Part shown: in pieces, positions 1,711 to 32,246 of the stretch
How the letters are laid out: every line of letters starts with the position of its first letter
Numbering within the stretch: the first letter of the stretch is position 1
From: Hellea sp.
GTDB taxonomy: Bacteria; Pseudomonadota; Alphaproteobacteria; Caulobacterales; Maricaulaceae
Length of the DNA: 51,743 bases
NCBI GenBank assembly: GCA_020631215.1
Contig: JAHDHS010000012.1
Span: 1-51,743 of the forward strand
Direction: 5' to 3'
Translations under genes and position numbers: made by a program
The notes under the pieces: model-generated
Databases searched by the model: none
What the model saw: only the letters and a program-made list of their open reading frames with translations
Told to the model about the DNA's origin: nothing

Positions 1711-3615
1711 TCACGCCAATTTATGTTTTAAGTCATCAAGCGCGACCGCCGCTTCAATCATTGGGACCGCCATGGCGAAATTCGCCGCTTCGGCCCAATC
1801 GAATGCCACGTCAAAGCCAAAATGCACGCCGAGCAAATCACCGCTTTGCTTGTCCAAAACCGGAGAGCCTGAACTGCCGCCTGTGGTCGAGGCATTATGG
1901 CAAAGCGCGGTCATTTCTTCATCCTGATGAATAATGTCAGAGACTGGCACACTTACGCCCAGCGGGTCATCCTGATCGCTGCTGTGGCGGAAGATATGAC
2001 CTTCGGAAAGACGCTTCACAGCAAAGATCGGATTTTCTTCAACCACGGCTGCGATTTTATCTGTGACATTGCGCGGGCACGGATAGCCTATCACGACAAT
2101 CTCGCGGTCCTGAATACCATTAACATCAAACACATTTAATGAGATTGGCTTGCGTTTACGCACAGATTTCGCGAGCCGAAAGATCGCCACATCCAGACCC
2201 GGTAGAAAGATCGGGTCATCCTCTGTAAATGCATGAAATTCTGACTTGTCCTCATCCTTTTCGGCCCAAAATTCGATCCCGCCGCCTTGTTTGATATCCT
2301 CCAGATACATTTCATAGACATGGCGGTTGGTCAGCACATGATTAGGCGAAATCAGAAAGCCTGTCCCCATGGCGACATCTTCATTCGTAGGCACGCCGAT
2401 TTGAGGGTACCCAATACGCCCGGTCGCGTGATAGGCACGGCGCACTGGCGCATAGACGCCTGACAAATTCCCCAGCTGTCCGGCCGCTAATTGTCCGCCA
2501 ACGCCGCCCGTGGGCACAGAACCGGGCACCATGACACTGCCGGCAAAAACAAGACCTTTGTCCTCCGGCCGTTCCAGTTTTGGCCGCAGATCCGCTGCCT
2601 TCTCTACAATTTCAGCCACTTTGGACTGCACGATAGTCTGAGCGGCGGCTTTACCGCCTCGTTTAATCAGAACGACAAGCAAACCTAAATTTGCCAGTCC
2701 AAGCAACCCTGCCAAATATGGCCATACACCTGATCCCTGATTTGCTTTCAGCCGATCAATTTCGCGCTGCAATCTATCGAGTTCACTCGCAACAGAGTTC
2801 GGTGTGGTAGCATTGCGCAACTGCTCAAGCTCCTGTGACTGCGCTGCCAAACTGGCCGTTAAAGCCTGAATATCTTTTTCAAGTTGAGTGCGTCTTGCCT
2901 GTTCGACTAATTTTTGACGACTGGCCTCAACCAAAGCCTCTTCCAGCAAGGTCGTGCGGTCTGTGTCTGTCTCTCCCGAAACCACAGGCGGCAATTCCAC
3001 TTCCGGGGCAGCAACATCTGAGCATAAAGCCAATCGCAAATATTCAAGCTGCGTCGGCGATTCTATATAATAGGTTAGACTCCCATCAAAACTTGAACTT
3101 CTAAGATAAGTCAAAACATCTTCCGATAAGGACGGATTGTGATCCTGATATCTAAAGCCTGCTAAGTCGAGCGTTCTTTTAAACTCCTGACTGCTGGCCG
3201 CAGACGATAAATATGCCGCGCCATCTTCCACATAAGGGCTGTGGTGCATGGGCCAGCGATTTACAAAATTCCCTAATTGAACGCTGCCAATGCCTTGGCT
3301 TGGAGAAACCCGCTCATATATCGCCCCGCTCGTGATCTCCTGCGGCAGGTTTGAGAAATCTGCGACCCATAAATCTGCACCGCCATCAACACTATCCACC
3401 CATAACTCGGCATTGGGCAGCCATTGCCCGCCATTCATCGCATCTGGCAGCGTTAAAGCGCCCCTGTCACCGAGTTCGTAAATCCATAATGTTTGATCCG
3501 CGCCACATGCTAAATTCGTCAGGTCCTCCCGCGGCTGCGCGAAGGCAAGCGTCGACCGCATGCCGACGAGTAGCAAAATAAATAAGACTAAAAAATTACG
3601 CGCCAGCCCCGGCAT
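1711..3615 (-). CDS. Membrane-anchored trypsin-like serine protease with coiled coil
   Basis: This 634-residue protein begins with a signal peptide (residues 1-26). Residues 27-220 are an unrecognised extracytoplasmic region, 225-294 a predicted coiled coil, 298-316 a hydrophobic membrane segment followed by IKRGGK, and 400-634 a trypsin-like (S1C/V8-type) peptidase. The probable triad is His432 in TNRHV, Asp475 in GLDVAIF and Ser582 in GGSSGSP. The start is supported by GGGGAGAG upstream of ATG. If the signal peptide is used, positive-inside logic puts the peptidase in the cytosol and the sensor-like N-terminus in the periplasm. There is no PDZ domain, so this is not DegP/HtrA. Targets are unknown. 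Confidence 0.87.
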   Translation of the reverse strand: MPGLARNFLVLFILLLVGMRSTLAFAQPREDLTNLACGADQTLWIYELGDRGALTLPDAMNGGQWLPNAELWVDSVDGGADLWVADFSNLPQEITSGAIYERVSPSQGIGSVQLGNFVNRWPMHHSPYVEDGAAYLSSAASSQEFKRTLDLAGFRYQDHNPSLSEDVLTYLRSSSFDGSLTYYIESPTQLEYLRLALCSDVAAPEVELPPVVSGETDTDRTTLLEEALVEASRQKLVEQARRTQLEKDIQALTASLAAQSQELEQLRNATTPNSVASELDRLQREIDRLKANQGSGVWPYLAGLLGLANLGLLVVLIKRGGKAAAQTIVQSKVAEIVEKAADLRPKLERPEDKGLVFAGSVMVPGSVPTGGVGGQLAAGQLGNLSGVYAPVRRAYHATGRIGYPQIGVPTNEDVAMGTGFLISPNHVLTNRHVYEMYLEDIKQGGGIEFWAEKDEDKSEFHAFTEDDPIFLPGLDVAIFRLAKSVRKRKPISLNVFDVNGIQDREIVVIGYPCPRNVTDKIAAVVEENPIFAVKRLSEGHIFRHSSDQDDPLGVSVPVSDIIHQDEEMTALCHNASTTGGSSGSPVLDKQSGDLLGVHFGFDVAFDWAEAANFAMAVPMIEAAVALDDLKHKLA

Positions 3616-3764
3616 TCAAGCTCTCCCCGCTACACTATCTAATAAATTCTGATATTATGAAAGTGTTTTCTTAGGCCGCCATGACGCTCATCACGCTTTT
3701 GGTTTTTTTCACAGAATAAGAATGGCTTGTTTTCTTTTATCTTTTTGCGGCCTATATATTTTTC

Positions 3765-5273
3765 ATGACCACATCTGCGGAACATAATTACATAGCCAAT
3801 TATGAAGCCGCTCTGGTTGGATTGAAAAACAAGCCGGACGATAAACTTTTACAATATCAGGCCGTCCTGAGCTTGGCGCGCGCTGGATCACTGGACTTCG
3901 CGATTACAGAATATAAGCGCTATGGCCTGGACAAAGTCAAAAACCATGAAGAAATCATGGCTCTGGGTGGGCGGCTCTCTAAAGATCAATATTTACGCCG
4001 TTCAGGCAAAGCGGCATTAAACCACGCCCGCGATGCCGCACACAAATATGAAACCGCTTTCCAAGCCACAGGCGGATATTTTTCCGGTGTGAATGCGGCC
4101 ACTATGGCGTTGATGGCGGATATGCCTGACGCGGTGATCAAGGATCGGGCTAAGACTATTTTGGATCTTTTGCCCGCAACCGATGATTTATCTTCTGAGG
4201 ACAAATATTTCACCGAAGCGACCCGAGCGGAATGCCAACTGCTGTTGGGCAGCTCAGCCAAATCCTATGAAGATTTACGGGCCGCCTTTGATCACGATCC
4301 GCTCAATTACAGTGCTCATGCGACGACGCTGAAACAATTTCGTATGATAACCGCCAAGCAAGGCGTGGACGGCGATTGGCTGTCCGATTTCCGCACCCCC
4401 AAAGCCATTCATTATGCGGGACACATATTTGGCACTGATAAAGCGCAAGAGCCTTATCTCGAGCGGCTTCATATCGAATTATCGGATATCATTCAGAAAC
4501 AGGATATCGGCTTTGGCTATGGCGCCTTGGCGGCTGGCTCTGACATCTTAATTGCTGAGGCCTTATTGGCTGAAGGCGCCGAACTTCATGTAATTCTGCC
4601 TTGCGATGAAGCCAGCTTTATAACCCAATCAGTGGCTCCGTTTGGACAAATATGGATGGATCGCTACCAAAGCTGCCGGGATCAAGCCGCAAGTGTGACA
4701 CCTCTATCATCGGCGGCAAGCTGGCCTGATCCCGTGCAAAACCGCATGACAGGCCATGTTGCGATGGGTCAGGCCGTGCTCAGAGCCCAGACCTTGGCAG
4801 CGCCAACCATGCAGCTTTTGATATGGAATGAAAACTCAGGACACAGCTACACCGCTACCCATGCTGGCGACTGGGCGGAGACCGGCCGCGAGCAGGTCAT
4901 TGTACCTTACCCGCTCAAACCAAATGGCTCAAAACCCTCATCCCAATCCATTACGGACATCTATGAAATTCTTCTTTTAAACGATGAAAAGACAGAACAC
5001 ATAAAGCTGACTGCGTTCTTCCAACTTGCTCATGTAAAGGATAGCTACCGCGAAGGCATGGCGGTTCATCTAAAAACAAATCTTGAAGAAGATCATCAAA
5101 TCCTGGCCGCCCTCTCAGAGGCGGCACGACCCTATGAAATTTTGATCTCTGAAAGTTTGGCCAGTATTTTGGCGTTTTTAAATGAAGCAGAATTTAAGCC
5201 CGTTTACGCAGGACAAATCACATCTGAAACCGGCGCTATAATTCGCGCCTATACATTATCAATCCAAAATTGA
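3765..5273 (+). CDS. TPR-like / SLOG-like signalling protein with class III cyclase-like remnant
   Basis: The 502-residue protein has a helical TPR or TRAFs-binding-type N-terminal half (about 1-200). A Rossmann-like module follows (about 212-380): IHYAGHIFG, then GFGYGALAAGSDILIAEALL, then GAELHVILPCDE, resembling SLOG/LOG-type nucleotide-binding folds. In alphaproteobacterial relatives I know, this TPR-SLOG pair precedes a class III adenylate cyclase. Here only about 75 C-terminal residues (REGMAVHL, SEAARPYEILISESLASIL) look like the end of such a domain, and the metal-binding Asp-containing core is missing, so cyclase activity is unlikely. Residue matches come from memory of the family; the remnant is inference. 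No Shine-Dalgarno is visible before the ATG. It ends directly against the convergent Crp/Fnr gene. Confidence 0.8.
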   Translation: MTTSAEHNYIANYEAALVGLKNKPDDKLLQYQAVLSLARAGSLDFAITEYKRYGLDKVKNHEEIMALGGRLSKDQYLRRSGKAALNHARDAAHKYETAFQATGGYFSGVNAATMALMADMPDAVIKDRAKTILDLLPATDDLSSEDKYFTEATRAECQLLLGSSAKSYEDLRAAFDHDPLNYSAHATTLKQFRMITAKQGVDGDWLSDFRTPKAIHYAGHIFGTDKAQEPYLERLHIELSDIIQKQDIGFGYGALAAGSDILIAEALLAEGAELHVILPCDEASFITQSVAPFGQIWMDRYQSCRDQAASVTPLSSAASWPDPVQNRMTGHVAMGQAVLRAQTLAAPTMQLLIWNENSGHSYTATHAGDWAETGREQVIVPYPLKPNGSKPSSQSITDIYEILLLNDEKTEHIKLTAFFQLAHVKDSYREGMAVHLKTNLEEDHQILAALSEAARPYEILISESLASILAFLNEAEFKPVYAGQITSETGAIIRAYTLSIQN

Positions 5274-19272: not shown

Positions 19273-20001
19273 CTAAAAACTGTCTTTCAGCGCACGTCTG
19301 CGCCCGAGCTCTATAGCATTACCAGCCGTCACGAACGGGTTGGTCGCCCTTTCCGCCGCAACCGTTGTCGGCACGGTGGGCAGGCCCGCCTCGCGTTTGG
19401 CCTTTGCGGCGTCAATCGCCTCTTTCAACCGCTCATTTTCCGGATCGACATGAATGGCGAATTTGGCATTGGACAGCGTATATTCATGCGCGCAATAAAG
19501 TTTTGTCTCATCCGGCAATGCCATGATTTTTGACAGGCTTTGATGCATCTGCTCAGGCGTGCCTTCAAAGAGCTTGCCGCAGCCCATGACAAAAATCGTA
19601 TCCCCGACAAAGGCGGCATTCGCCTCCGGGACATGATAAATTATGTGCTCATCCGTATGACCGGGCGTGTGGAAAATATGAACGTCATGCTGCCCGAACT
19701 GAAATGTGTCGCCCTCCGTAAGGCCTTTTTGCAAACCGGGGATACGGCCTTCAATATAGGCCGGGCCATAAATGGTCAGATCATATTGCTTTGCCAGCGC
19801 CGCATTGCCGCCTGTATGATCCGGATGCCAATGCGTATTCCAAATTTCTGTCAATCTCCAACCGCGCTGCTCGCATTGGCGGGCTATTTCAGCCCCGTCC
19901 GGCGTATCAATACAGGCCGTTCGACCACTCTGCGGGTCATGAATGAGCATGCCGTAATTATCCGACAGGCAGGGAAATATCTCGATCTGAATGTCGCTCA
20001 T
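19273..20001 (-). CDS. gloB: Hydroxyacylglutathione hydrolase (glyoxalase II)
   Basis: The 242-residue metallo-beta-lactamase-fold enzyme hydrolyses S-lactoylglutathione to lactate and glutathione. Metal ligands are visible: THWHPDHTGG (His57, His59, Asp61, His62), TPGHTDEHIIY, VGDTIFVMGCGKLFEG and CAHEYT. The C-terminal domain NPFVTAGNAIELGRRRALKD with conserved Arg/Lys is typical. It is slightly shorter than the usual 250-255 residues but complete. It follows the TonB-type gene by 43 bases and may be co-transcribed. Confidence 0.95.
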   Translation of the reverse strand: MSDIQIEIFPCLSDNYGMLIHDPQSGRTACIDTPDGAEIARQCEQRGWRLTEIWNTHWHPDHTGGNAALAKQYDLTIYGPAYIEGRIPGLQKGLTEGDTFQFGQHDVHIFHTPGHTDEHIIYHVPEANAAFVGDTIFVMGCGKLFEGTPEQMHQSLSKIMALPDETKLYCAHEYTLSNAKFAIHVDPENERLKEAIDAAKAKREAGLPTVPTTVAAERATNPFVTAGNAIELGRRRALKDSF

Positions 20002-20044
20002 AGAGCCATTATAAACCTTAATGGCTCGACGTCACTTGGAAATC

Positions 20045-23005
20045 TTATTCCGCTCTGAATGAGACTTTCTTAGTATGGCCCGAGGAATAGACAGCCGCGC
20101 CATTTTCAGTACGCGGTTCAAATCGATATTTTTCGACGGCTTTAATCGCCGTCTCTGTAAAAGCCTCCGACATGCGGCCTGTATAATCCGTGCTGGCTAA
20201 TGTCACATTGACTGGCTTACCGGTACTATCGACATCATAGTTGACGATAACGTTGGCGCTGACCCAGATTTCACGGCGCTCAGCCGCACGCGGATAAGCG
20301 ATTTTAGACGATTTGATAAGCTTGGCTTCAACGGTCTCAATGGCAGCGGCAGGTACGACGGACAGTTCCGATATGATCGGTGCACTCGCTACGGCAATTG
20401 GATCTGGCTCCGTTACCGCTGTCACAGGCTGGGCCTCTGGAATGGTTTCCACATATGGCGGATTGATTACATTAATGTCGGGCTGAACTGTGCTGCTTGT
20501 TGAGGCTTCATAACTGATATTTTGGCTGGTATTTTGGAAGCTCGGCTCTGCCACTAGGGTAGCATCATAATACGTCACTTGTTGTGGCGCGGTTACAGGC
20601 TCATTTATGACAAGGCTGCTGGCTGGCAAAACCTCTAACTCAACCGTCTGAACAGGCTCTGTGATTTGCGCTCTCCCGGCCCGGCGTAAGCTATTTAAAA
20701 ACGGGCCCGTGATGTCTTCATTCACAGGTAAATCCTGTACGTTTTTAAAAGCTTTGATGGCGTCATGCGTGGCAGTGGTTTGTTTGCCATCTATATCGCC
20801 ATTGTAAAAGCCGAGTGACATCAGGCGCGTTTGTACGTCGCGCGTCAGTTCCACATAGGCCTCAGTCTCAAATTTAGACTGTTCGGCTTTAGTTTCCGCC
20901 TTGATATGATCGGCAGGTTTAGGAACTGAAACCAATTGGCTCCTCGGTTTCTGCGATGAGCTTTTCTCTATCGCAGCCTCCTTTTTCGGCTGACTCGGCG
21001 TTGGCGCATCAATGGAAACATCGCTGCTTTTTACCGCCTCTAAATTGTCGCTGTTGTCAGGTGACGTCTCAGAAGCATCTAATTCACTCACAATTTCCGG
21101 AGTTGCCGCCTTAATTTCGATGGCCGGAATGTCCAGTTTAGTCGTTTCAGCTGCCGTTAAATCAGCGGCACTTGTTTCGACGACCGCACTGGCCACCTTA
21201 GGGGTTAGCGGTTTCTTGCTTGTCGCGATCGGTTTGGGATTATTGGATGCTTGATAGGCTGCAAACACACCTGTCCCTAAAATTGCAGCAACCGCCAGAG
21301 CCGCCACACCTTGCTTGACGGGCAAATCCTCGGCCTTGATTTTCGGCACGGAAGCTTTGGGCATATCCACTTTAGGTAAAGATGGCTTAGATATTTTTGG
21401 CGTTTTGATTGCCGGCATTTTTATGCGGTTTTTGACCTTTTTCTTGGGTTTATGCATCACCTTGGAAAATACGGTCGGCACAGGTTTCTGTTTCAACGCA
21501 GCTCGGCTTGTCACTTCGTTAGAGAGCGCAGAGATATCTAGCTGGTCAATCTCTTCCGCATCACCGCCGGACTCAAGGTGTTTGATCACAGCCAGATGTG
21601 ATATTTCGCGTGCATCTAATTCTTCTATGCCCTGGCGCGCTGTCTCGAGCTTAAGGTTTAGTTGATGTTGATCAGCTTTTGCCTGCTCAGCGCTTTTCTT
21701 AAGCTCATCCATTTGAGTTTGGAGACTGGCGATCTCTGAAACAATTGTCTCATGCTCGATTTGCCGCTTTTGAGCCGTGTTTTTCTTGGCCCCATGCGCT
21801 TCTTGCGTAATTTCAAGCGTGCTCGCGGTTTGAGTTAATTGATCCAATATGTTTGATTTCTGAGCGGCAACATCGCTCAGGCGTGCTTGCTTTTCCTCAG
21901 CTACGGCAATGGCTTCATCCGCAAGGCGCTGGGCTTTGGCATGTTCAGCTTTGGCGTTCGCATATAATTGTTCCAGTGTGGCATTTTCAGCCTTAGCTTC
22001 TTCGGACCTAAGCTTCGCTGTGCTGAGCGCCTGTTCGGCTGATTGCAGGGCGGCTTGCGCCTTGGTCAAGCCTGCTTCTTTGCGGGAGGCTTTGGCTTCA
22101 GTTTTAGCCAGGGTTTCTGTCAGCTTTTCAAGACTCGCCGCTTTCTGTCCCGTGCTTTCAGAGGCCGCAACTGCCTCATCTTCCAGTATTGTCAAATGAT
22201 CCGACAGGGTCTGTCTTTCCTCTAATGTCAGTTCAACAGCGGACTGGTAACGCTCGATAGCCGCTTTACGTTCGGCTGCTTTGCGCGCGGCAATTTCACG
22301 CTGCCGGGCGGCTTCAATTCTGCGGGCTTCTTCGGCCTTGCGCTCTTCTTCAATGCGGCGCTCATTTTCCAATCGGCGCATTTCATCTTGTTTCAGACGT
22401 TCTGCCTCTTCGAATGCCATGGCGGCACGTTCCATCTCGGCTATGCGGTCCATTTCCAGCTTTAAGGCCTTTTCGGCTTCTTTGGCGGCCTGCAAGGCTT
22501 TGCGCTCAGCTTCAGCTTTCGCATTGGCCGCGGCATCCATTTTAGCTTTATAGCTCGCGGCCACGCGTTCCGCTTCCTGAGCGCGTAATTCTGTTTCACT
22601 AAATTCGCTTTTGACATCGGGCTTTGATTGTTTGCGCTTGAAGCGGTCAAGCAGCCCGGCTGATACTGTCTTTGCCGCTTCGTATGAAGATGCAGCGCCG
22701 GCTGCCGTCACAGCTTGCCATTTCACATCTTGAACCAGGGCTAATTCCGGGCACTGCACATTTAAAGTATCATCTGGCTGAATATTTGACGCGAATTGCG
22801 CCGGAATATCCAGTTCCGTCATACCATTGACGGAGCGGCAATCCAGCAGCGTGCCTTTTTCCTCTTCAGACCACCCAATCGGTGAGAGCCATTCCGTCCC
22901 ATTACGGCAAAGTTTCACCAAAATCTGGCTGGAATTCAGTGCCTGATTAATGACCAGACGGTTTGCGCCATCTGCTTGATGTATTGTGATTCCCTTACCG
23001 CCCAT
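20045..23005 (-). CDS. Coiled-coil, peptidoglycan-binding, TonB-C-domain membrane protein
   Basis: This 986-residue protein has an unusual order. Residues 1-100 form an unrecognised N-terminal domain, 140-470 a long Ala/Glu/Lys-rich coiled coil, 505-562 a Lys/Pro-rich linker, and 566-584 a single membrane helix (VAALAVAAILGTGVFAAYQ). A Pro/Thr-rich stretch follows, then 718-778 a peptidoglycan-binding-1-like domain (TRLMSLGFYNGDIDGKQTTATHDAIKAF), and 903-985 a TonB C-terminal domain (YPRAAERREIWVSANVIVNYDVDSTGKPV, AVEKYRFEPRTENG). The topology suggests a cytosolic coiled coil and a periplasmic wall-binding and TonB part. Start ATG has GAGGGGG upstream. TonB proteins normally lack such a large cytosolic coiled coil, so the function is not assigned. 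Confidence 0.88.
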   Translation of the reverse strand: MGGKGITIHQADGANRLVINQALNSSQILVKLCRNGTEWLSPIGWSEEEKGTLLDCRSVNGMTELDIPAQFASNIQPDDTLNVQCPELALVQDVKWQAVTAAGAASSYEAAKTVSAGLLDRFKRKQSKPDVKSEFSETELRAQEAERVAASYKAKMDAAANAKAEAERKALQAAKEAEKALKLEMDRIAEMERAAMAFEEAERLKQDEMRRLENERRIEEERKAEEARRIEAARQREIAARKAAERKAAIERYQSAVELTLEERQTLSDHLTILEDEAVAASESTGQKAASLEKLTETLAKTEAKASRKEAGLTKAQAALQSAEQALSTAKLRSEEAKAENATLEQLYANAKAEHAKAQRLADEAIAVAEEKQARLSDVAAQKSNILDQLTQTASTLEITQEAHGAKKNTAQKRQIEHETIVSEIASLQTQMDELKKSAEQAKADQHQLNLKLETARQGIEELDAREISHLAVIKHLESGGDAEEIDQLDISALSNEVTSRAALKQKPVPTVFSKVMHKPKKKVKNRIKMPAIKTPKISKPSLPKVDMPKASVPKIKAEDLPVKQGVAALAVAAILGTGVFAAYQASNNPKPIATSKKPLTPKVASAVVETSAADLTAAETTKLDIPAIEIKAATPEIVSELDASETSPDNSDNLEAVKSSDVSIDAPTPSQPKKEAAIEKSSSQKPRSQLVSVPKPADHIKAETKAEQSKFETEAYVELTRDVQTRLMSLGFYNGDIDGKQTTATHDAIKAFKNVQDLPVNEDITGPFLNSLRRAGRAQITEPVQTVELEVLPASSLVINEPVTAPQQVTYYDATLVAEPSFQNTSQNISYEASTSSTVQPDINVINPPYVETIPEAQPVTAVTEPDPIAVASAPIISELSVVPAAAIETVEAKLIKSSKIAYPRAAERREIWVSANVIVNYDVDSTGKPVNVTLASTDYTGRMSEAFTETAIKAVEKYRFEPRTENGAAVYSSGHTKKVSFRAE

Positions 23006-23076
23006 GACGACCCCCTCTAATTAGGTTTTTACGAAAACCCGCTGTGAGGAATTTGGCAAGAGCAGCCGCTTAAATC

Positions 23077-23113
23077 TGTGGATGGAACAGGGTTATCCAC
23101 AGAGTCGTCCACA
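23077..23113. promoter_or_regulatory. Cluster of DnaA-box-like sequences
   Basis: TTATCCACA at 23093-23101 is a perfect match to the DnaA-box consensus. TGTGGATGG at 23077 (inverted, CCATCCACA) and TCGTCCACA at 23105 are two-mismatch relatives. All three fall in 37 bases in the 174-base gap between the TonB-type gene and the GIN-domain gene, followed by an AT-rich stretch. This could be a DnaA-responsive regulatory region. I see no oriC neighbours (hemE, dnaA, parAB), so an origin is not claimed. Confidence 0.5.
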
Positions 23114-23179
23114 TCAATTTATATAAGGGGTTTGACGGGACAGTCGCCCGTCAATTTCCACTCAATGACTTAAGCGATA

Positions 23180-23845
23180 TTATTTGATCTTAACCTTGGA
23201 CATGAAGTTATCGCTTTTGCGAACTGTGTCCGGCTTTCCATAGACCGTAATTTGCCCCATGCCCGCCGCGTCGGCGTCAACTGATTCAGATGCATAGACT
23301 GTGGCTTCGCCCATACCGGCTATGTCGACATCGACATTATCACATTTTAGCGCTTCGGCATCCACTTCGCCCATACCGGCAATATCCAGATCCAGCGATC
23401 CGCAGCTGCCCGTGAGCGTAAGCTCGGCAATTCCGGCCACATCGACGTCCAGATCAGACGTATCAATGTCATTCACATCACCTGTGGCCACGCCGGCCAC
23501 TTCCATAGCGTTTAGCTTGGGCAGGGTAATCACGGCATGGATGCCTTGCTTATTTCCGATATTCCAGCTTTTCTTGCCCTTTTTGGTCGCCAGTTTCAGG
23601 ACACCCTCTTCGACAGAGATTTCCATAAATTCGATTTCTTTATCAGACCCCGAAGTCGTGACGGAAAAATCCTCACCGACGGTGACATCTAAATTGTAAA
23701 CACCAGACACAGAAATTTCTGTAAAACCCGACAAGTCATGTTGGGTCAGATTTTCGCCGTCAACGTCGTGAGCCGCCGCAGAAAAAGCGAGGGCTCCGCA
23801 AAGGGCGGTGGCAATGAGTGTTTTCGTTTTCATGCTGGCACGCAT
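23180..23845 (-). CDS. Exported GIN-domain (DUF2807) protein
   Basis: The 221-residue protein has a signal peptide (MKTKTLIATALCGALAFSAAA) and a head-like beta-solenoid domain of the GIN/DUF2807 type, starting FTEISVSGVYNLDVTVGEDFSVTTSG. Four short near-repeats are visible: DVDVAGIAEL, DLDIAGMGEV, DVDIAGMGEA and DADAAGMGQI. The ATG follows AGGAGAG. It is probably periplasmic or outer-membrane attached; the family function is unknown. It is divergent from the CoA-transferase and has a promoter surrounded by palindromes. Confidence 0.88.
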   Translation of the reverse strand: MRASMKTKTLIATALCGALAFSAAAHDVDGENLTQHDLSGFTEISVSGVYNLDVTVGEDFSVTTSGSDKEIEFMEISVEEGVLKLATKKGKKSWNIGNKQGIHAVITLPKLNAMEVAGVATGDVNDIDTSDLDVDVAGIAELTLTGSCGSLDLDIAGMGEVDAEALKCDNVDVDIAGMGEATVYASESVDADAAGMGQITVYGKPDTVRKSDNFMSKVKIK

Positions 23846-23871
23846 AAGTCTCTCCTTTATTTAACGCCTTA

Positions 23872-23924
23872 ACGATAACGACAATCGTCGTGGAGTCAAT
23901 AATAATTATCGAAAAACGATAATT
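23872..23924 (-). promoter_or_regulatory. GIN-gene promoter with two palindromic operators
   Basis: On the minus strand TTGACT, a 16-base spacer and TATCGT form a promoter about 27 bases before the start codon. The spacer contains ACGAC-N4-GTCGT. Directly upstream of the -35 lies AATTATCG-N5-CGATAATT, an 8-bp perfect inverted repeat. The two related TCG/CGA palindromes around a promoter look like sites for a dimeric regulator that would repress or modulate the gene. The regulator is not identified in the window. Confidence 0.5.
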
Positions 23925-23967
23925 GCTTAATGTCCATCTACGCTCTAGGTTACACGTCGGAGGGCCT

Positions 23968-25146
23968 ATGAGCATACAGCCATTACGCGGAATTAAAGTC
24001 GTTGAATTGTCCAATATGGTGACGGCCTCACTCGCCGCGATGACTTTGGCGCAACAAGGCGCAGAGGTGATCAAAGTCGAACCTTTGGGCATCGGCGACA
24101 AACTCCGCCATTTCGGGAGCCAAAAAATGGGCGTGTCCGGCGTGTTCAATAATTGCAATCGCGGCAAGAAATCACTCGCTATCAATTTAAAGGACCCCAC
24201 TGGGCAAGAGGTCGTGCGCAAATTGGCGCTGGATGCCGACATCCTGATTCACAATTACCGGCCGGGCAAAATGAGTAAATTAGGCCTTGGCAGCGAAGCT
24301 TTACGCGCCGCCAACCCCCGTTTGATTGTATGTTCACTGACAGGTTTTGGACGAACCGGCCCGCTGAAAGATGCCCCAGCCTTTGATCACGTCATACAGG
24401 CCTTGTCCGGCATCACAGGCGCGCAGGGTAAAAACGGAAAACTGGAATTTATCAATATGCTCGTCTGCGATAAGATTACAGCTTACACAGCCGCGCAAGC
24501 CGTCACCGCTGCGCTGCTGCATGCCGCACGCACGGGCGAAGGGCAGCATATTGATATCTCCATGCTCGCAGCCAGTCTTGCCTTTATGTGGCCGGACGGC
24601 ATGATGCATGAAACATTGCAAGGCGACGGCGTGGTTCACCTGGCGCCCATGAAAGCCTATTATCAGACGATTAAAACGGCGGATGGTTTCATATCACTCG
24701 CGCCATTTGGCGATGATGAATGGGCAAGGGTTTTCAATATTTTCGGACGGCCCGATCTGGCGGAACATCCTAAATTTAAAACCTTGAAAGCCAGAGGGCT
24801 TTACATTTCTGACCTCTTCGAAGAGCTGAAAAAGAAACCGCTGACGCAAAGCAGCGAAGACCTTCTGACGGCTCTACGAGACGCAGACATTCCCTGCTCG
24901 CCTTGCCTGCCAACGGAAGAGATCGCAGACCATCCTCAGGTTCAAGCGATTGGCGCGATTGAGACTCAAAATCACCCTCATCTTGGGGAGCTGCAAATGG
25001 CCGCCGCGCCGGTGCATTTCGGCGGGCAGCCGCAAAACTCTCTCGGGCCCGCGCCTTTATTGGGCGAACATTCGGAACTGATATTAGGCCAATACGGGTT
25101 CTCACCGGATAAAATTCAGGACATGAAAGATTCTAGCATCATTTAA
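23968..25146 (+). CDS. CaiB/BaiF-family (class III) CoA-transferase
   Basis: The 392-residue enzyme starts MSIQPLRGIKVVELSNMVT with the family block GAEVIKVEPLGIGDKLRHFG, followed by NCNRGKKSLAINLKDPTGQ, and the domain LIVCSLTGFGRTGPLKDAPAFDHVIQALSG; the conserved Asp after PAF is consistent with the catalytic Asp of the formyl-CoA-transferase group. It transfers CoA between carboxylic acids. The ATG at 23968 is preceded by GGAGG with good spacing; a 15-codon upstream extension lacks this support. It is divergent from the GIN gene. The substrate cannot be predicted from sequence alone. Confidence 0.92.
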   Translation: MSIQPLRGIKVVELSNMVTASLAAMTLAQQGAEVIKVEPLGIGDKLRHFGSQKMGVSGVFNNCNRGKKSLAINLKDPTGQEVVRKLALDADILIHNYRPGKMSKLGLGSEALRAANPRLIVCSLTGFGRTGPLKDAPAFDHVIQALSGITGAQGKNGKLEFINMLVCDKITAYTAAQAVTAALLHAARTGEGQHIDISMLAASLAFMWPDGMMHETLQGDGVVHLAPMKAYYQTIKTADGFISLAPFGDDEWARVFNIFGRPDLAEHPKFKTLKARGLYISDLFEELKKKPLTQSSEDLLTALRDADIPCSPCLPTEEIADHPQVQAIGAIETQNHPHLGELQMAAAPVHFGGQPQNSLGPAPLLGEHSELILGQYGFSPDKIQDMKDSSII

Positions 25147-25174
25147 GGTTCAAATGTGCTATCGTGGTAAATGT

Positions 25175-25214
25175 GGCACCCATGTTTCCCCTGTCGAGTT
25201 AAACCATGGGTGCC
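25175..25214. repeat. 10-bp inverted repeat after the CoA-transferase gene
   Basis: GGCACCCATG and CATGGGTGCC flank a 20-base centre; with one bulge the stem extends by TTT/AAA. There is no T-tract, so it may be a rho-independent element of low strength, a transcript-stabilising hairpin or a protein site. Confidence 0.55.
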
Positions 25215-25293
25215 TGTCAGAAATCATGCATCCCACATCTCGATATGCCCCGCAGGATTTCACAACAGTGAAGGCCTAAAACCAATGCGACTA

Positions 25294-25322
25294 TTGTCAA
25301 CTTCGGTATACCGAAGTAAACA
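25294..25322 (+). promoter_or_regulatory. luxR-type operator inside its promoter spacer
   Basis: ACTTCGGTATACCGAAGT is a perfect 18-bp palindrome (25300-25317), the length of LuxR/TraR-type boxes. It begins directly after a -35 TTGTCA and the -10 candidate TAAACA follows it, so the palindrome fills the 17-base spacer. The ATG of the LuxR-family gene lies 6 bases further, so the mRNA would be nearly leaderless. Binding here by a dimer would repress its own transcription. The -10 is weak. Confidence 0.5.
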
Positions 25323-25327
25323 AATCT

Positions 25328-26047
25328 ATGGATGTCAATTATTATCGTGATCTGAGGGGCCTGATCGGGAAGCGGAATTCTATCAGAGGGGCCTTGTTCT
25401 CCCTGAAGAATATTGTCCCAGAATTTGAAAACTGCCATCTGGGATATGAGTATTTTATCCAGCCCAGTTCCTATAAGCGCGGCGATATCATAGCTGTGAC
25501 AACTTTGCCCTCAACGCTGACAGACAAATACAAACCCAGCGGGGGTGAAAACGCGGATCCTGTCGTTGAAAATATTGTAGGCATGGATGATATGCTGACA
25601 ATCGAATTGCCTAAGATTACAGGAAATAAGCGTTCCAAATATTATAAAAATCCGTTCTTTCTGGATATGCAAAGCTTAGGCTATCCAATTATCACGGCCT
25701 ATAATCTGCTTCCAAAAGGGGAGTTTGGGTTTGGGGCTTTGTCCGTCATGAAACCCGACCTATTGACGGGCCGTCAGCACCCGCCTTCACATTACACGGT
25801 TATCGGTTATGCCTTTCATTTGATGATGAAAACCCATGGTTACATAGAGCGTTATCTAGAAATCACCCCCAAGGAAAAAGAGGTTCTAAAACGCATGGCT
25901 GCCGGCCGCACAGCTCATGATGTGGCGGCAAAGTTTGAGGTAACGCAAAGGACAATTGAAATGCGGCTCGCCTCCGCCCGTAAAAAACTCAAGGCCAGAA
26001 CAACAACCGAAGCCGTGTTTAAATGTGTATGCTACGGAATATTGTGA
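25328..26047 (+). CDS. LuxR-family transcriptional regulator (LuxR solo)
   Basis: The 239-residue protein has an autoinducer-binding-like N-terminal domain (about 10-160) and a C-terminal LuxR HTH: ITPKEKEVLKRMAAGRTAHDVAAKFEVTQRTIEMRLASARKKL. In the ligand pocket the DPVVE pair (Asp70-Pro71 in TraR numbering) and a Tyr are retained, but the Trp residues that pack against acyl-homoserine lactones are not at the expected positions (LPSTLTDKY). No luxI homolog is in the window. It may sense another ligand or none. Pocket mapping was done by eye. Confidence 0.85.
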   Translation: MDVNYYRDLRGLIGKRNSIRGALFSLKNIVPEFENCHLGYEYFIQPSSYKRGDIIAVTTLPSTLTDKYKPSGGENADPVVENIVGMDDMLTIELPKITGNKRSKYYKNPFFLDMQSLGYPIITAYNLLPKGEFGFGALSVMKPDLLTGRQHPPSHYTVIGYAFHLMMKTHGYIERYLEITPKEKEVLKRMAAGRTAHDVAAKFEVTQRTIEMRLASARKKLKARTTTEAVFKCVCYGIL

Positions 26048-26131
26048 TCTTCGGTCAGCCCTTAGAGCAAGTAGAGCTGACATTAAAATCTTAGATTGAT
26101 CAGTTTGCAGGATCATGTTCAAAGGTTAATT

Positions 26132-26878
26132 ATGACTGATCTTTTGGAAGCTGCTCACACAGTTGCAAACTGTCTAGTTCAATCCGCTGAAAACGGGATG
26201 CACGATAAAGACGATTATGTTTACGCCAGAGGGGTACTCAAGTCAGGAGTACCACATGGTCAGTTACCTAAAATTTTACGAGTATGTCCTTCAGGTGAAG
26301 CTGTAGATGCCTATCTTCGCCGTATTGCAACAGGTAGCGGTTCGTGGGGAGAGCGTCGTAACGCTGCCAATGAGGAAATGGAGGCGCTTTTTGAGTTTTT
26401 AGAATTCGGCGGCGGGGCAATGAATGTCATTGCAAGTCCTTCGGACTTTGCTGACAAGGGCGCTGTACATGCAGCTGAGACTTGGGAAAAAATTACTGTT
26501 CGAGTGACTGACGACCCCGAAGGTGCGGTGACACTAGCATCAAAACTGCTCGAAGATGTTTGTATTGCAATCATTGAAGCCAGCGGTGCTAAACCGAAAG
26601 GACTAACATTGAAAAAATTATACGATGAATGCTCGCAGATTCTTGGTCTCAAAGTGAAAGACTATGAAGATCCTAACATACAAGCGCTCATTGGTTCCAT
26701 CGCGCAGGTGGCTCAACGTATCTGAAGCTTGCGTAATTCCGCTAGTGATTCTCATGGCACTCGGTCAGGAAGTTATCGCCCCGCACCACGCCACGCTAAG
26801 CTTGCAGTAAATGCTTCGGGTGCGACTGCAGTATTTTTACTTGAAACAGCAAAAGCTCGTGGGCTAATTTCGTCTTAA
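26132..26878 (+). pseudogene. Abi_C (abortive infection C-terminal) protein interrupted by in-frame TGA
   Basis: The first part (26132-26725, 197 codons) ends in TGA at 26723-26725. The same frame then continues for 50 codons to TAA at 26876-26878 and reads SLRNSASDSHG...RPAPRHAKLAVNASGATAVFLLET. This is the conserved end of the Abi_C domain (PF14355), whose first half TVRVTDDPEGAVTLASKLLEDVC lies before the TGA. In relatives a Gly or Ala stands where the TGA is (GALRN), so a single GGA-to-TGA change is enough. The ATG at 26132 has AAAGG upstream. Abi_C proteins are tied to phage abortive infection. It is either a recently inactivated gene or a readthrough case. Confidence 0.82.
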
Positions 26879-26931
26879 ATAAAATGCAAAATAGCTATAT
26901 TAGTTAATTTCCGCTTTCAGATAACCTTTCA

Positions 26932-26959
26932 AATAAAACCCGGCTACGAGAGCCGGGTT
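26932..26959 (-). terminator. clpA terminator
   Basis: AACCCGGCT and AGCCGGGTT form a 9-bp stem with a 5-base loop; on the minus strand it is followed by TTTTATTT. It sits 8 bases past the clpA stop codon. Confidence 0.85.
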
Positions 26960-26966
26960 AAACTAC

Positions 26967-29303
26967 TTAAGCATCTTCCTTCGGCTTATCTTCCGGCGCG
27001 GGCAATCCTTTGCCGCCCTTGCCGCCTTCGATCTTAAGCTTGGGCGGGGGGACGATTTTGAAGGTGAGGTTTTCCTTCTTGCGGTCCACGCCGACTTTGA
27101 CCAGACCGCCTGCCTTGAGCTTGCCGAACAGGATTTCATCGGCCAGCGGCTTTTTGATATATTCCTGTATCGTGCGGGCCAGCGGACGCGCGCCGTAACG
27201 CTTGTCATAGCCTTTACTGGCGAGCCAGAGATTGGCACCTTTGGAGAGTTCAAATTCGATCTTGCGATCGGCGAGTTGCGCTTCGAGCTGGATAACAAAT
27301 TTGTCCACGACCTTGGCGATGTCTTCCGGCGAGAGCGCTGCGAATGAGACAATCGCGTCCAGACGGTTACGAAACTCCGGCGTGAAGCGGCGCTTGATCG
27401 CCGCGTCCTGCTCGTCATCGCGCATACCGCGCCCAAAGCCGATCTCGGCCTTGGCGGCATCGGCCGCGCCCGCATTGGTCGTCATGATAATGATGACATT
27501 GCGGAAATCGACCTTGCGGCCATTGGCATCCGTCAGGAAGCCATTATCCATGACCTGCAACAGTATATTGTAAATATCCGGATGGGCCTTTTCGATCTCA
27601 TCGAGCAGCAGCACGCTATGCGGGTTCTGATTGACCGCATCGGTCAGCAAGCCGCCCTGATCATAACCGACATAGCCCGGAGGCGCGCCGATCAGGCGGG
27701 AGACGGTATGCCGTTCCATATATTCGGACATATCAAAGCGCAGCAATTCGAGCCCTTGCGTCATGGCAAGCTGCCTTGCGACCTCGGTCTTGCCCACGCC
27801 CGTTGGTCCGGCAAAGAGGTAAGAGCCAATCGGCTTGTTCGGCTCGCGCAGACCTGCCCGGGCGAGTTTGACCGCCGCGGCGACTTTTTCAATCGCATCA
27901 TCCTGTCCGAACACAACCCGTTTCAGATCCATCGGCAGAGATTTCAGCGCCTTCTCATCATCGCGCGAAATGCTCTTTGGCGGGATGCGCGCAATCTTGG
28001 CGATCACGGCTTCGATTTCTTGAATACCGATCTTCTTTTTGCGCTTTTTCTCTGTCACCAGTTTCGTGCGAGCCCCGGCCTCATCGATGATGTCGATGGC
28101 TTTATCCGGCAGCTTGCGATCCGTGATGTGACGGACGGATAAATCCACCGCGCCTTGAATCGCTTCATTGGTATATTTGACATTATGAAATTCCTCAAAA
28201 TAGGATTTCAGCCCCATCAGGATTTTCACCGCATCTTCGGAGGTTGGCTCGCCGACATCAATTTTCAAGAAGCGGCGGGAAAGCGCGCGGTCTTTCTCAA
28301 AATGCTGGCGGTATTCCTTATAGGTGGTCGAACCCATGCAGCGTAGCTTGCCGCTTTGCAAAGCCGGCTTCAGTAGGTTGGAGGCATCCATCGCCCCGCC
28401 GGAGGTCGCGCCCGCGCCGATGATTGTGTGGATTTCATCAATGAACAAGATCGCGCCTTCGGTTTCCTGCAGCTTGTTCATGACCGCCTTTAGGCGTTCT
28501 TCAAAATCACCGCGATAGCGCGTGCCCGCCAGAAGCGCGCCCATATCCAGCGAGAAGATGGTCGCGTCCTGCAAGACTTCCGGTACTTTGTCATTGACGA
28601 TGCGGCGGGCAATCCCCTCCGCGATAGCCGTTTTGCCAACGCCCGGGTCCCCGACCAATAGCGGATTGTTCTTGCGGCGGCGAGACAACACCATGATACA
28701 GCGTTCGACCTCATCATCGCGGCCAATCAGCGGATCAATATCGCCATCACGGGCTTTTTGGTTCAGATTGACTGTATATTCCTTCAGAGGGTCTTTCTGC
28801 TTGGCCTCATCGCCCTGCGCCGCGTCATCTGCGCCCTGAATAGGTTTGGAGACAGATTGATCGCCATTTTTGGAAATGCCGTGGCTGATATAATTGACCG
28901 CATCATAACGGGTCATGTCACGTTCCTGCAGGAAGTAAACCGCATGGGATTCGCGTTCGGCAAAGAGCGCAACTAGTGCATTCGCGCCAGTCACTTCCTC
29001 GCGGCCAGAGCTTTGGACATGAATCACGGCGCGCTGAATCACGCGGTGAAACCCGGCTGTCGGGCGGGCTTCTTCAAAATCCTCGACAATAAGTGAGACC
29101 AGATCTTCATCTAGGTAGCGGGTCACATCCGCGCGCAGGGGCTCTATGTCGACGTCGCAGGCCGCGATGACCGCTGCCGCGTCTTTATCGTCCAGCAAGG
29201 CCAGCAATAAGTGCTCCAATGTCGCCAGCTCATGCTTGCGATCAGAGGCCAGCGTCAGCGCGCGGTGGATGGTTTCTTCCAGAACCGGTGAAAATGATGC
29301 CAT
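26967..29303 (-). CDS. clpA: ATP-dependent Clp protease ATP-binding subunit ClpA
   Basis: The 778-residue AAA+ unfoldase starts MASFSPVLEETIHRALTLASDRKHEL (Clp N domain, residues 1-150). D1 has the Walker A GDPGVGKTA and Walker B ILFIDEIHTIIGAG. D2 has GPTGVGKTEVARQLA and LLLDEIEKAHPDI. The C-terminal ClpB-D2-small domain follows, then a GGKGGKGLPAPED tail. ClpA feeds N-end-rule and other substrates to ClpP (not in the window). The ATG at 29303, with AAAGGA upstream, matches relatives; a longer open frame of 68 codons has no family match and was not used. It lies downstream of clpS. Confidence 0.97.
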   Translation of the reverse strand: MASFSPVLEETIHRALTLASDRKHELATLEHLLLALLDDKDAAAVIAACDVDIEPLRADVTRYLDEDLVSLIVEDFEEARPTAGFHRVIQRAVIHVQSSGREEVTGANALVALFAERESHAVYFLQERDMTRYDAVNYISHGISKNGDQSVSKPIQGADDAAQGDEAKQKDPLKEYTVNLNQKARDGDIDPLIGRDDEVERCIMVLSRRRKNNPLLVGDPGVGKTAIAEGIARRIVNDKVPEVLQDATIFSLDMGALLAGTRYRGDFEERLKAVMNKLQETEGAILFIDEIHTIIGAGATSGGAMDASNLLKPALQSGKLRCMGSTTYKEYRQHFEKDRALSRRFLKIDVGEPTSEDAVKILMGLKSYFEEFHNVKYTNEAIQGAVDLSVRHITDRKLPDKAIDIIDEAGARTKLVTEKKRKKKIGIQEIEAVIAKIARIPPKSISRDDEKALKSLPMDLKRVVFGQDDAIEKVAAAVKLARAGLREPNKPIGSYLFAGPTGVGKTEVARQLAMTQGLELLRFDMSEYMERHTVSRLIGAPPGYVGYDQGGLLTDAVNQNPHSVLLLDEIEKAHPDIYNILLQVMDNGFLTDANGRKVDFRNVIIIMTTNAGAADAAKAEIGFGRGMRDDEQDAAIKRRFTPEFRNRLDAIVSFAALSPEDIAKVVDKFVIQLEAQLADRKIEFELSKGANLWLASKGYDKRYGARPLARTIQEYIKKPLADEILFGKLKAGGLVKVGVDRKKENLTFKIVPPPKLKIEGGKGGKGLPAPEDKPKEDA

Positions 29304-29376
29304 TATGTTTTCCTTTCGAACTCTAGATTTGGGGAGTTCGTTCCTGAATTCAAGACCGCATATGCTTGCGGGCGCA

Positions 29377-29742
29377 TCACGCTTTCTCGAGCGTGCATTG
29401 CAGCGGATGCTGGGCCCGCTTGGCGGCGTCCATGACCTGCGCGACTTTGGTCTCAGCGATTTCGAATGTGTAGATACCGCAAGTGCCGATGCCCGTTTGG
29501 TGCACATTAAGCATGATTTTAGTGGCCTCTTCCTGCGATTTTTTGAATATTCCCATTAGGATGGACACGACAAATTCCATAGGTGTGTAGTCATCATTCA
29601 TCAAAATGACCCGGTACATAGACGGCTTTTTCGTCTTGGGCCGCGTTTTGGTGGCGACGCCGCGTTCTTCCTCGCCGCCCGGCGGAGGGGCATCACCTTC
29701 CTTATCAGGTCCGGCCACTAAGATATGTTCAAAGTCCAGCAT
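29377..29742 (-). CDS. clpS: ClpS adaptor protein
   Basis: The 121-residue adaptor has an extended, Pro/Glu-rich N-terminus and the ClpS core [27 protein letters not shown], with the N-degron pocket Asn/Asp and Met/Val, then [21 protein letters not shown], and a C-terminal [10 protein letters not shown]. It delivers N-end-rule substrates to ClpA. The gene is 73 bases upstream of clpA on the same strand, the usual arrangement. Confidence 0.97.
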
Positions 29743-29831
29743 GACCCTAAACTAGGTCTTATTTTGCGGAATGCAAAGGGTGTCCAGACGCCAAAAATCA
29801 ACTGAACCATAAAAGCTGTGAGTATCATGGC

Positions 29832-31127
29832 TTAAGAATAGGCTGGTCTGGCCTGTGCGTTTCGGACGTAATTTGACATTTTATACCAGAATATGGCCAA
29901 ACCTGATTGCGCATCCAGCGCCGTCCTTTGCCTAACCATTTTTGCCAATATCAAGATCAACATGATGCTGCCGAAATTTGTCCCTGCCGCAAAAGTTGAT
30001 TCGAAAGAGCCAATGACAATGGCTGATCCTAAAAACGGTATCGCGAAATATGCGCCCGCACTGTGACGGATTTTCGCCAAGGACAGCAGCAAAGCCGCCG
30101 ACGCTCCGACGACTAATAGGCTGGCACCGAACTTACCCAAACTCAGCCATAATTCCAAAACACTATTATGCGAGTGGTTGGCTGTGTAGCCCAATTGTTC
30201 AAAGATCAATGAGCGGTTGCCAAAATCATAATCTTCAGACCAATAGGCGTTAAAACCATAACCAAGGGTGCCTGCACCCTCTAAGCTATATTGTCTTACC
30301 GCCTCCCAAATTTGCGCCCGTCCGGTGAAAGTTGAATTTCTTCCAAGAAGCTTTAGCACAGTTTCGGTGTCAAAAATCACCATGGCCGCCATGGGCACAA
30401 CGCAGAATATCGTTAGCCACAGACTGATAACAAAAACGGGCGTGTTCCGGCGCATAGCGAACACCCAAACCGCCAAAGCCAAAGAAAATAACAGCGCGAC
30501 CAAGGCCGTCGCCGAGGTCGAAAGCAGGGTCACTGCCATAAATACCATCAAACCTAACAAAGATGACAGCGTTTTGGTCGGCACCATGGCTATTCTGGCA
30601 ACCGTCAGTGCGGCCCCGAATACGCCAACCTGACCGGCGTAGTTTTTCTCCATCCACATACCTGACAAAGCGCCCACATGGACCTCTTGCATCTGGCCTA
30701 ACTTTGGCACCGCAAAATATAGAAATAACGATATCAGAGACACACAGACAAAGGCCAACCAGGACATTCTAATGATGTCCCGCCAATCAAACAAATAGGC
30801 TGCCATGACAACATAGACGCCTGAAACCAGGAATATGACCGCATCATTCAAAGTTTCCTGAGGGGAATAGGACCAAGTATAAGACGCCAAAGCCAGTAAT
30901 ATCAGCAACATGAAGGGCAGCGCGCTAAACACGCCAAAGACTGCCTCCCTGAGCCGGTAGACAATATTTAAGATCATCAGACCCATAATCGGAAGCTGAA
31001 CAACAATATTTGGTAATGGCGGGGCGTAGTTGAATAGTTTCACGTAAAGCGCAGATGGCCCAACCGACAGCATAAGCGCTGCCAAAAAGAGGATAAAACA
31101 TTCCAGCTTTGATGCACGGGATACCAT
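29832..31127 (-). CDS. O-antigen ligase/polymerase-like membrane protein
   Basis: The 431-residue integral membrane protein has about ten to twelve hydrophobic helices and a large periplasmic loop near residue 285 with GFNAYWSEDYDF and NHSHNSVLELWLSLG, the Wzy/WaaL family feature around a conserved His. It would polymerise or attach polysaccharide repeat units at the periplasmic face. Which of the two reactions is not clear, and no wzx or glycosyltransferase genes are adjacent. It is divergent from the GH5 lipoprotein, which may act on the same polysaccharide (inference). Confidence 0.8.
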   Translation of the reverse strand: MVSRASKLECFILFLAALMLSVGPSALYVKLFNYAPPLPNIVVQLPIMGLMILNIVYRLREAVFGVFSALPFMLLILLALASYTWSYSPQETLNDAVIFLVSGVYVVMAAYLFDWRDIIRMSWLAFVCVSLISLFLYFAVPKLGQMQEVHVGALSGMWMEKNYAGQVGVFGAALTVARIAMVPTKTLSSLLGLMVFMAVTLLSTSATALVALLFSLALAVWVFAMRRNTPVFVISLWLTIFCVVPMAAMVIFDTETVLKLLGRNSTFTGRAQIWEAVRQYSLEGAGTLGYGFNAYWSEDYDFGNRSLIFEQLGYTANHSHNSVLELWLSLGKFGASLLVVGASAALLLSLAKIRHSAGAYFAIPFLGSAIVIGSFESTFAAGTNFGSIMLILILAKMVRQRTALDAQSGLAIFWYKMSNYVRNAQARPAYS

Positions 31128-31149
31128 GGGTCTTCATCGGCAAACATGG

Positions 31150-31164
31150 TTAATGACGCCTTAA
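31150..31164. promoter_or_regulatory. Putative CtrA-binding site
   Basis: TTAA-N7-TTAA followed by C matches the full CtrA consensus of Caulobacterales. It lies in the 84-base gap between the O-antigen-ligase-like gene and the GH5 gene, and could control one or both in the cell cycle. The site is seen directly; its use is inferred. Confidence 0.55.
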
Positions 31165-31211
31165 CTTACGCTGTTTGGCGCAGTTAAATTTAGGGTTTCA
31201 TTAGGCCTGTC

Positions 31212-32246
31212 ATGTTAGGCAGGGGTATGAAAAACTGGCTTATTCCAATCGTTGCTGGTCTCTCGGCTTTGGCAGTTAATAGCTGCACAGAGACAGAAGC
31301 CCAAATCCAAACTGTTCACGCCCCCATTGCGCATGGCAATTTCCAAGTGCGGCGCTGCATTAATCTTGGCAATGGTTTGGAAGCCGAAACCGAAGGCGCT
31401 TGGGGTTACACAGTCAGGCATGAGGATTTGAAGCGCATCAGAGCCGCCGGATTTGACACAATCAGACTGCCGGTACGCTGGGATAACAAAACCTCCCGTC
31501 GCGCGCCATACCGGATTGATCCGGCCTATATGGCCCGGGTCAAGCAGATCATTGATCAGGCCCATGCCCTAGGCCTCGGAATCATACTGGATGTGCATCA
31601 TTACGAAGAGCTATATAGCCATACGGACAGGGAATTGCCGCGTTTGATGGCTATTTGGGATCAAATTTCGCGCACATTTCACGGCTTCCCGGGCCGCCTC
31701 TATTTTGAGCCTGTCAATGAGCCCTTCCCTTACGGTGACATGGCGAGCGTGAACCGCGTTTATCAAGCGGTCATTCCTGTGATAAGGAAATTCCACCCTG
31801 ACCGTCCGATCATTTTGGGCGGCAATAATTGGAACTCTGTTCAAAGCCTATCCGAGATCAACTGGCCTCACGACCCAAATATTGTCGCAACATTCCATGA
31901 TTATGTGCCACATGAATTTACCCATCAGGGCAATAGCTGGGAAGGTTCACCGCCGCCTCTCGGACGTCGTTGGGGCAGCCGAAAAGACATCCGGGAAATG
32001 CGCCATGAATATGCACAGGCCAAGGCATTTCAAAACCGCACAGGCCTGCCCGTATTCGTCGGTGAATTCGGCGTTATCAACACAATCCCTGACAGGCCAA
32101 GGGCCGAATGGTTGGCGGAGCGACGGCGGATCATTGAGGCCAATGGATTTTCCTGGTGCGCTTGGAGCTTTAGCGGATCTTTCGACATTTATGATACCAG
32201 CCGTGAAACATGGCGAACGCCTTTGCTGCGGGCGCTCATTCCATAA
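31212..32246 (+). CDS. Glycoside hydrolase family 5 lipoprotein
   Basis: The 344-residue protein has an N-terminal signal with a possible lipobox (LAVNSC, Cys25) and a GH5 (beta/alpha)8 barrel. Landmarks are GFDTIRLPVRW, GLGIILDVHHY, the acid/base YFEPVNEPF (Glu170) and the nucleophile PVFVGEFGV (Glu285), with NWNSV and WCAWSF. It would cleave a beta-glycan such as cellulose or another polysaccharide. ATG at 31212 and at 31227 are both possible. It faces the O-antigen-ligase-like gene across the CtrA-type site. Confidence 0.9.
   Translation: MLGRGMKNWLIPIVAGLSALAVNSCTETEAQIQTVHAPIAHGNFQVRRCINLGNGLEAETEGAWGYTVRHEDLKRIRAAGFDTIRLPVRWDNKTSRRAPYRIDPAYMARVKQIIDQAHALGLGIILDVHHYEELYSHTDRELPRLMAIWDQISRTFHGFPGRLYFEPVNEPFPYGDMASVNRVYQAVIPVIRKFHPDRPIILGGNNWNSVQSLSEINWPHDPNIVATFHDYVPHEFTHQGNSWEGSPPPLGRRWGSRKDIREMRHEYAQAKAFQNRTGLPVFVGEFGVINTIPDRPRAEWLAERRRIIEANGFSWCAWSFSGSFDIYDTSRETWRTPLLRALIP

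Follow-up and report, generated by a model that had tools for sequence, protein, structure and literature searches.

The window, by which we mean the whole 51,743-nucleotide stretch of Hellea sp. DNA that was analyzed (assembly GCA_020631215.1, contig JAHDHS010000012.1, positions 1 to 51,743), contains a reading frame of the Abi_C ('abortive infection family protein') type that is interrupted by a single in-frame TGA. The frame lies on the plus strand, 84 bp behind a LuxR-type regulator gene. The features discussed below are as follows.

25328..26047, plus strand: LuxR-type regulator gene (GerE domain, E 7.2e-9), separated by 84 bp from the Abi_C frame
26132-26878, plus strand: whole Abi_C frame, consisting of 197 codons, TGA, 50 codons and TAA, with no other stop in the translation
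26132..26722, plus strand: open frame 5' of the TGA, 197 codons, comprising an N-terminal region and the first half of the Abi_C domain
26723-26725, plus strand: the in-frame TGA, at a position where relatives have Gly (78/80) or Ala (2/80)
26726..26878, plus strand: frame 3' of the TGA, 50 codons followed by TAA, comprising the second half of the Abi_C domain
26732..26755, plus strand: predicted HEPN catalytic motif R201-N202-x5-H208, located behind the stop
1711-3615, minus strand: gene whose product has a trypsin-like C-terminal domain (PF13365, E 1.1e-14) and a weak PADLOC match to LmuA (E 3.9e-8)
3765-5273, plus strand: gene for a TPR-S domain protein (PF20308, E 4.6e-12), with no PADLOC match

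The Abi_C frame starts with an ATG that, by eye, is located 3' of an AAAGG-like sequence, and it stands tail to tail with clpA, a gene named from its protein sequence. The original prediction, made from the DNA alone, was that one in-frame TGA breaks the gene and that no frameshift or other stop intervenes. This was confirmed by translation and by a tblastn comparison of 80 relatives with positions 26051-26950, in which all 80 matched in one frame and crossed the TGA. The same comparison ruled out a double frameshift before the TGA. The base following the TGA is A. TGA had also been described as a normal stop in the neighborhood and, when the window's open reading frames of at least 180 amino acids (overlap below 30%) were counted, 6 of the 36 were found to end in TGA, that is, 5 in addition to the Abi_C frame.

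Pfam analysis of the joined frame, with the TGA entered as X, identified Abi_C (PF14355) at an E value of 1.6e-16 and 60.6 bits, compared with a cut-off of 24, and the match spanned positions 2-83 of the 83-position profile. A six-frame search gave 62.9 bits for this domain. These results bear out the proposal that this is an Abi_C defence-type gene with the remainder of its domain intact behind the TGA. The proposal had been staked on the alignment of the residues after the stop, and the 50 residues concerned did align, even by themselves (E 9.2e-12, 45.3 bits, profile positions 45-83). When the 197 residues 5' of the stop were searched alone, no Pfam family was matched at an E value of 1 or less, and at this threshold the complete Abi_C domain is absent from the normally decoded 197-residue product. 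The PADLOC model for AbiJ (PDLC02347) was matched at E 8.3e-18, through residues 130-239 only, on positions 167-276 of the 281 in the profile; an NCBIfam search of the frame returned no match. Thus, the joined frame resembles the Abi_C family in scoring well above the Pfam cut-off, but it differs in having one in-frame stop and in its half-domain 5' of the stop, whose agreement with the consensus is poorer than that of every one of the 80 relatives retained, a set selected for likeness to the profile of the family. Inspection of residues 161-197 (26612-26722), immediately 5' of the stop, revealed that only 6 of 17 highly conserved positions are kept there.

The source for the HEPN definition is the paper of Anantharaman and others, 2013. 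In a passage of this paper, Rx4-6H is given as the predicted HEPN RNase active site and AbiJ is listed as a HEPN family (PMC3710099). This definition, Rx4-6H with a polar residue after the R, describes the continued frame, in which the predicted motif R201-N202-x5-H208 begins three codons 3' of the TGA. Because the motif is 3' of the stop, the normally decoded product is without it. R201, N202, D206 and H208 were present in 80/80 relatives (the best 80 of 325), a count that is biased upwards near the motif, since LRN..D.HG itself served as one of the two search patterns. The likeness to the AbiJ HEPN family therefore consists of the PADLOC match and the Rx4-6H motif in the continued frame, whereas the differences are that the model is matched in the C-terminal half only and that the decoded product lacks the motif. 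For L067, an intact relative, the AlphaFold2 model (mean pLDDT 89.7, 37-sequence alignment) places Gly208, the equivalent of the stop, inside a helix of residues 191-218; the motif, R211-H218 in this protein, ends that helix, and a helix of residues 229-254 comes after. Foldseek comparison of the model with the PDB gave no match at an E value of 0.001 or less. Among the best 50 of 151 rows, the probability exceeded 0.5 only for 1ufb (0.99), 1o3u (0.82) and 1wol (0.82), with E values of 0.7-2.7. The entries 1o3u and 1wol are titled HEPN, and 1ufb presumably is a HEPN protein too. A sequence profile search of the PDB found nothing convincing, the best match being a designed helical bundle at E 0.011. 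The model comparison thus weakly suggests a HEPN fold.

The relatives were obtained by scanning genome contigs with a nine-sequence profile, which found 325, and the best 80 of these were kept. No stop was found inside the match in any of these best 80 of 325, and the TGA column was occupied by Gly in 78 and by Ala in 2. This agrees with the original prediction that the stop replaces a conserved small residue. Essentially the same was observed for 40 loci (31 distinct) from a viral collection, in which the column was Gly in 38 and Ala in 2; three of the 40 have a stop elsewhere in the matched stretch. The best matches to the gene have about 30-44% identity, and there being no close relative, a nearby ancestral state at the stop cannot be read.

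The age of the stop was assessed from residues that are not seen at their column among the 80 relatives. Behind the stop, 2 of 41 residues were unseen in this sense, a number equaled or exceeded in 11/80 relatives; in the part before it, 31 of 153 were unseen, and in each of three blocks none of the 80 relatives reached the window's number. The raw contrast between the two parts has a Fisher p of 0.019, but it should not be pressed, since the relatives themselves have fewer unseen residues in the post-stop column range (43/3280) than before it (278/11669). By a cruder measure, agreement with the consensus, the tail is not typical either: it agrees at 23 of 41 positions, with no relative lower (0/80). 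Consensus match in blocks 108-160 and 161-197 also was at the bottom of the relatives' range, and in block 1-107 it was not, 4/80 relatives being lower. Neutral decay was simulated on the assumption that the starting sequence resembled a typical relative; the number of unseen residues was two or fewer in 4.7% of the runs with 10 substitutions and in 1.5% of those with 12. With 20 substitutions, 59% of simulated runs had no further stop, so the lack of further stops is a weak sign alone. The tail probably had little time to decay, which means that the stop is either recent or an error.

Recoding of the UGA was examined at the genome level. The best match to SelB, in a 400-amino-acid frame, scored 198.1 bits against a cut-off of 242.25, and the sole tRNA-Sec match over the cut-off was a tRNA-Ser(tga) according to ARAGORN. 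The genome search found 24 tRNA matches, none with a UCA anticodon. ARAGORN confirmed a tRNA in 23 of these loci; the remaining one (L245) is cut by the sequence end and received no ARAGORN call, and its anticodon is TCT by eye. The genome is estimated to be 96.23% complete, and the 24 tRNA matches make up an incomplete set, so a recoding component may be missing from the assembly. The 100 nt from the UGA on showed no special fold (z +1.3; 182 of 200 shuffles equal or better), and none of the Rfam families reached its gathering score in the window. Selenoprotein-type recoding found no support on these grounds: no SelB over the cut-off, no confirmed tRNA-Sec match, no UCA anticodon among the 24 tRNA matches, no special structure in the 100 nt from the UGA on, and the use of TGA as a stop in other open reading frames of the window. 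UGA recoding is unlikely, and standard decoding is the simplest reading. Among the titles and abstract openings found in a literature search on read-through or premature stops together with defence, none concerned a stop codon in Abi_C.

The distribution of the gene is patchy. The pre-stop part was found in none of 59 other genomes of relatives searched (0/59). When it was used as the query, 8 of 384 other genomes of the class gave matches, with identities of 28-32% for seven of them and 26% for the eighth, and matches were obtained in 6 of 397 other genomes of the phylum. Of the 18 genomes of the genus that were searched, only the Hellea sp. genome of the window itself contained Abi_C, and in the class, 25 of 385 genomes did. 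Two of these 25 have an inner stop, the window gene and a remnant in another genome (G085, locus L167). The remnant resembles the window gene in combining an Abi_C match with one in-frame stop; it differs in that its stop is a TAA, lies elsewhere and interrupts a frame of 77 codons, and it looks like an older remnant. Relatives also were found on 64 plasmid and 4 phage records, all at below 60% identity, and plasmid records of Thalassospira, Roseibium and Roseomonas matched over at least 80% of the query. A single-sequence search of viral contigs confirmed no close relative, and three stretches fit a pattern. This patchy spread fits a horizontally moved gene. In a passage on Tn7-like transposons, Abi_C is listed as cargo of these elements (PMC8649781).

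The base composition and the flanks of the locus were compared with its surroundings. The G+C content is 44-47% over the luxR-abi stretch and 51-58% in the flanking caiB and clpA genes, but this difference is weak evidence, because other parts of the 20000 to 32000 region also have 46-50%. Since clpA is present in the genus, it was used for an empty-site comparison. The 3' flanks of 14 clpA loci (up to 1.5 kb, 12 of them long enough) yielded 45 six-frame open reading frames, none of which matched the window at an E value of 1e-4 or less, and insertion boundaries therefore could not be drawn.

Some features of the relatives' loci were recorded separately. A recombinase-family gene lies near Abi_C in 5 of 11 plasmid regions viewed (L146, L148, L150, L151 and L152; one region was unannotated) and in 6 of 80 genome loci (L067, L077, L079, L110, L116 and L134), the latter by tblastn with three recombinase queries. 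In three of eight aligned plasmid relatives (L147, L148 and L151), the C-terminal Abi_C half is the same but the N-terminal part is longer and different, which gives the impression that sensor parts have been swapped. The plasmid collection also includes NZ_CP141089.1, a 4.9-Mb Escherichia coli record that is probably a chromosome.

We consider it likely that the locus holds a horizontally acquired Abi_C (AbiJ-type HEPN) gene that was inactivated by a recent nonsense change. Judging from the family, the N-terminal part of the intact protein would sense infection and the HEPN site would cut RNA, halting the phage together with its host cell. Standard decoding would yield a 197-residue product that breaks off before one core helix is complete and has neither the R-N-x5-H site nor the last helix; with these losses it would be catalytically dead and probably unstable. 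This would make the gene a young pseudogene, in keeping with a costly suicide gene that is absent from the other genomes searched in the genus. Such a loss would agree with the established general view that abortive-infection genes, being costly, come and go rapidly. Broken members of the family occur elsewhere, in 2 of the 25 class matches (the window gene included) and in 3 of the 40 viral-collection loci. The locus can be regarded as a well-bounded case of a defence gene in which a single change probably caused loss shortly after the gene had been acquired, in itself an ordinary event.

The original prediction had allowed for loss, read-through or error alike. A tail without clear decay past the stop also fits an error or read-through. 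The main rival to loss is that the TGA arose by sequencing, assembly or strain-mixture error and that the gene is intact in the organism. The little-damaged tail is consistent with this, as is an assembly in 81 contigs, but a substitution-type error that creates a stop inside a conserved domain would have a low prior, and we regard an error as a minor possibility. Under low-level read-through of the UGA, whether by a near-cognate tRNA or through some unknown element, the cell would make small amounts of the full-length suicide RNase. In its favor, the catalytic motif survives in the tail, as do 16 of the 19 positions that are conserved in at least 80% of relatives, and the tail looks no more decayed than the pre-stop part (2/41 versus 31/153 unseen). 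However, this contrast is weaker given the relatives' own baseline; the next 100 nt are unstructured, SelB and a UCA tRNA were not found at the cut-off and among the 24 matches, respectively, and the base after the stop is A. In addition, there is no stop in the TGA column among either the 80 genome relatives or the 40 viral-collection loci (31 distinct). Read-through is accordingly unlikely, and we give it a slim chance, but it is the more interesting alternative: the locus would carry greater weight only if it were true, as the stop immediately precedes the predicted active site. A specific version, in which rare read-through of a UGA placed directly before the active-site motif would set the dose of a HEPN suicide RNase, seems highly improbable; here the bulk of the product would be a safe, inactive short form, and the active long form would appear only on failure of termination, for example, while a phage is taking over translation.

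The same slim chance as for low-level read-through is given to the notion that the truncated 197-residue protein, or a pair of separate pieces, may have a function of its own, such as that of an inactive partner. The pre-stop part is long and open, and a TTG at 26729 could in principle allow translation to restart. However, no Shine-Dalgarno-like sequence was seen by eye at the usual distance before 26729, and a long-standing short product predicts a decayed tail, whereas this tail has decayed little. Recent loss of an acquired Abi_C gene is the reading that we prefer.

The original prediction held that the Abi_C gene is the only defence-like gene in the window. This is doubtful, given the trypsin-like and TPR-S genes at 1711-5273, which form a divergent pair and possibly represent a second defence-like locus. 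Closer to the Abi_C frame, the LuxR-type gene was matched in 11 of 39 other genomes, in every case only at the helix-turn-helix end, and it is possibly a co-acquired neighbor. Promoter-like sites between 25100 and 27100 numbered 6, compared with 2.8 (standard deviation, 2.2) in shuffled sequences, and terminator-like sites numbered 3, compared with 2.1 (standard deviation, 1.4). A perfect 18-bp palindrome is located at 25300-25317, directly 5' of the LuxR-type gene at 25328. It has no second copy in the genome at two or fewer mismatches, and it looks like a putative operator of the LuxR-type regulator.
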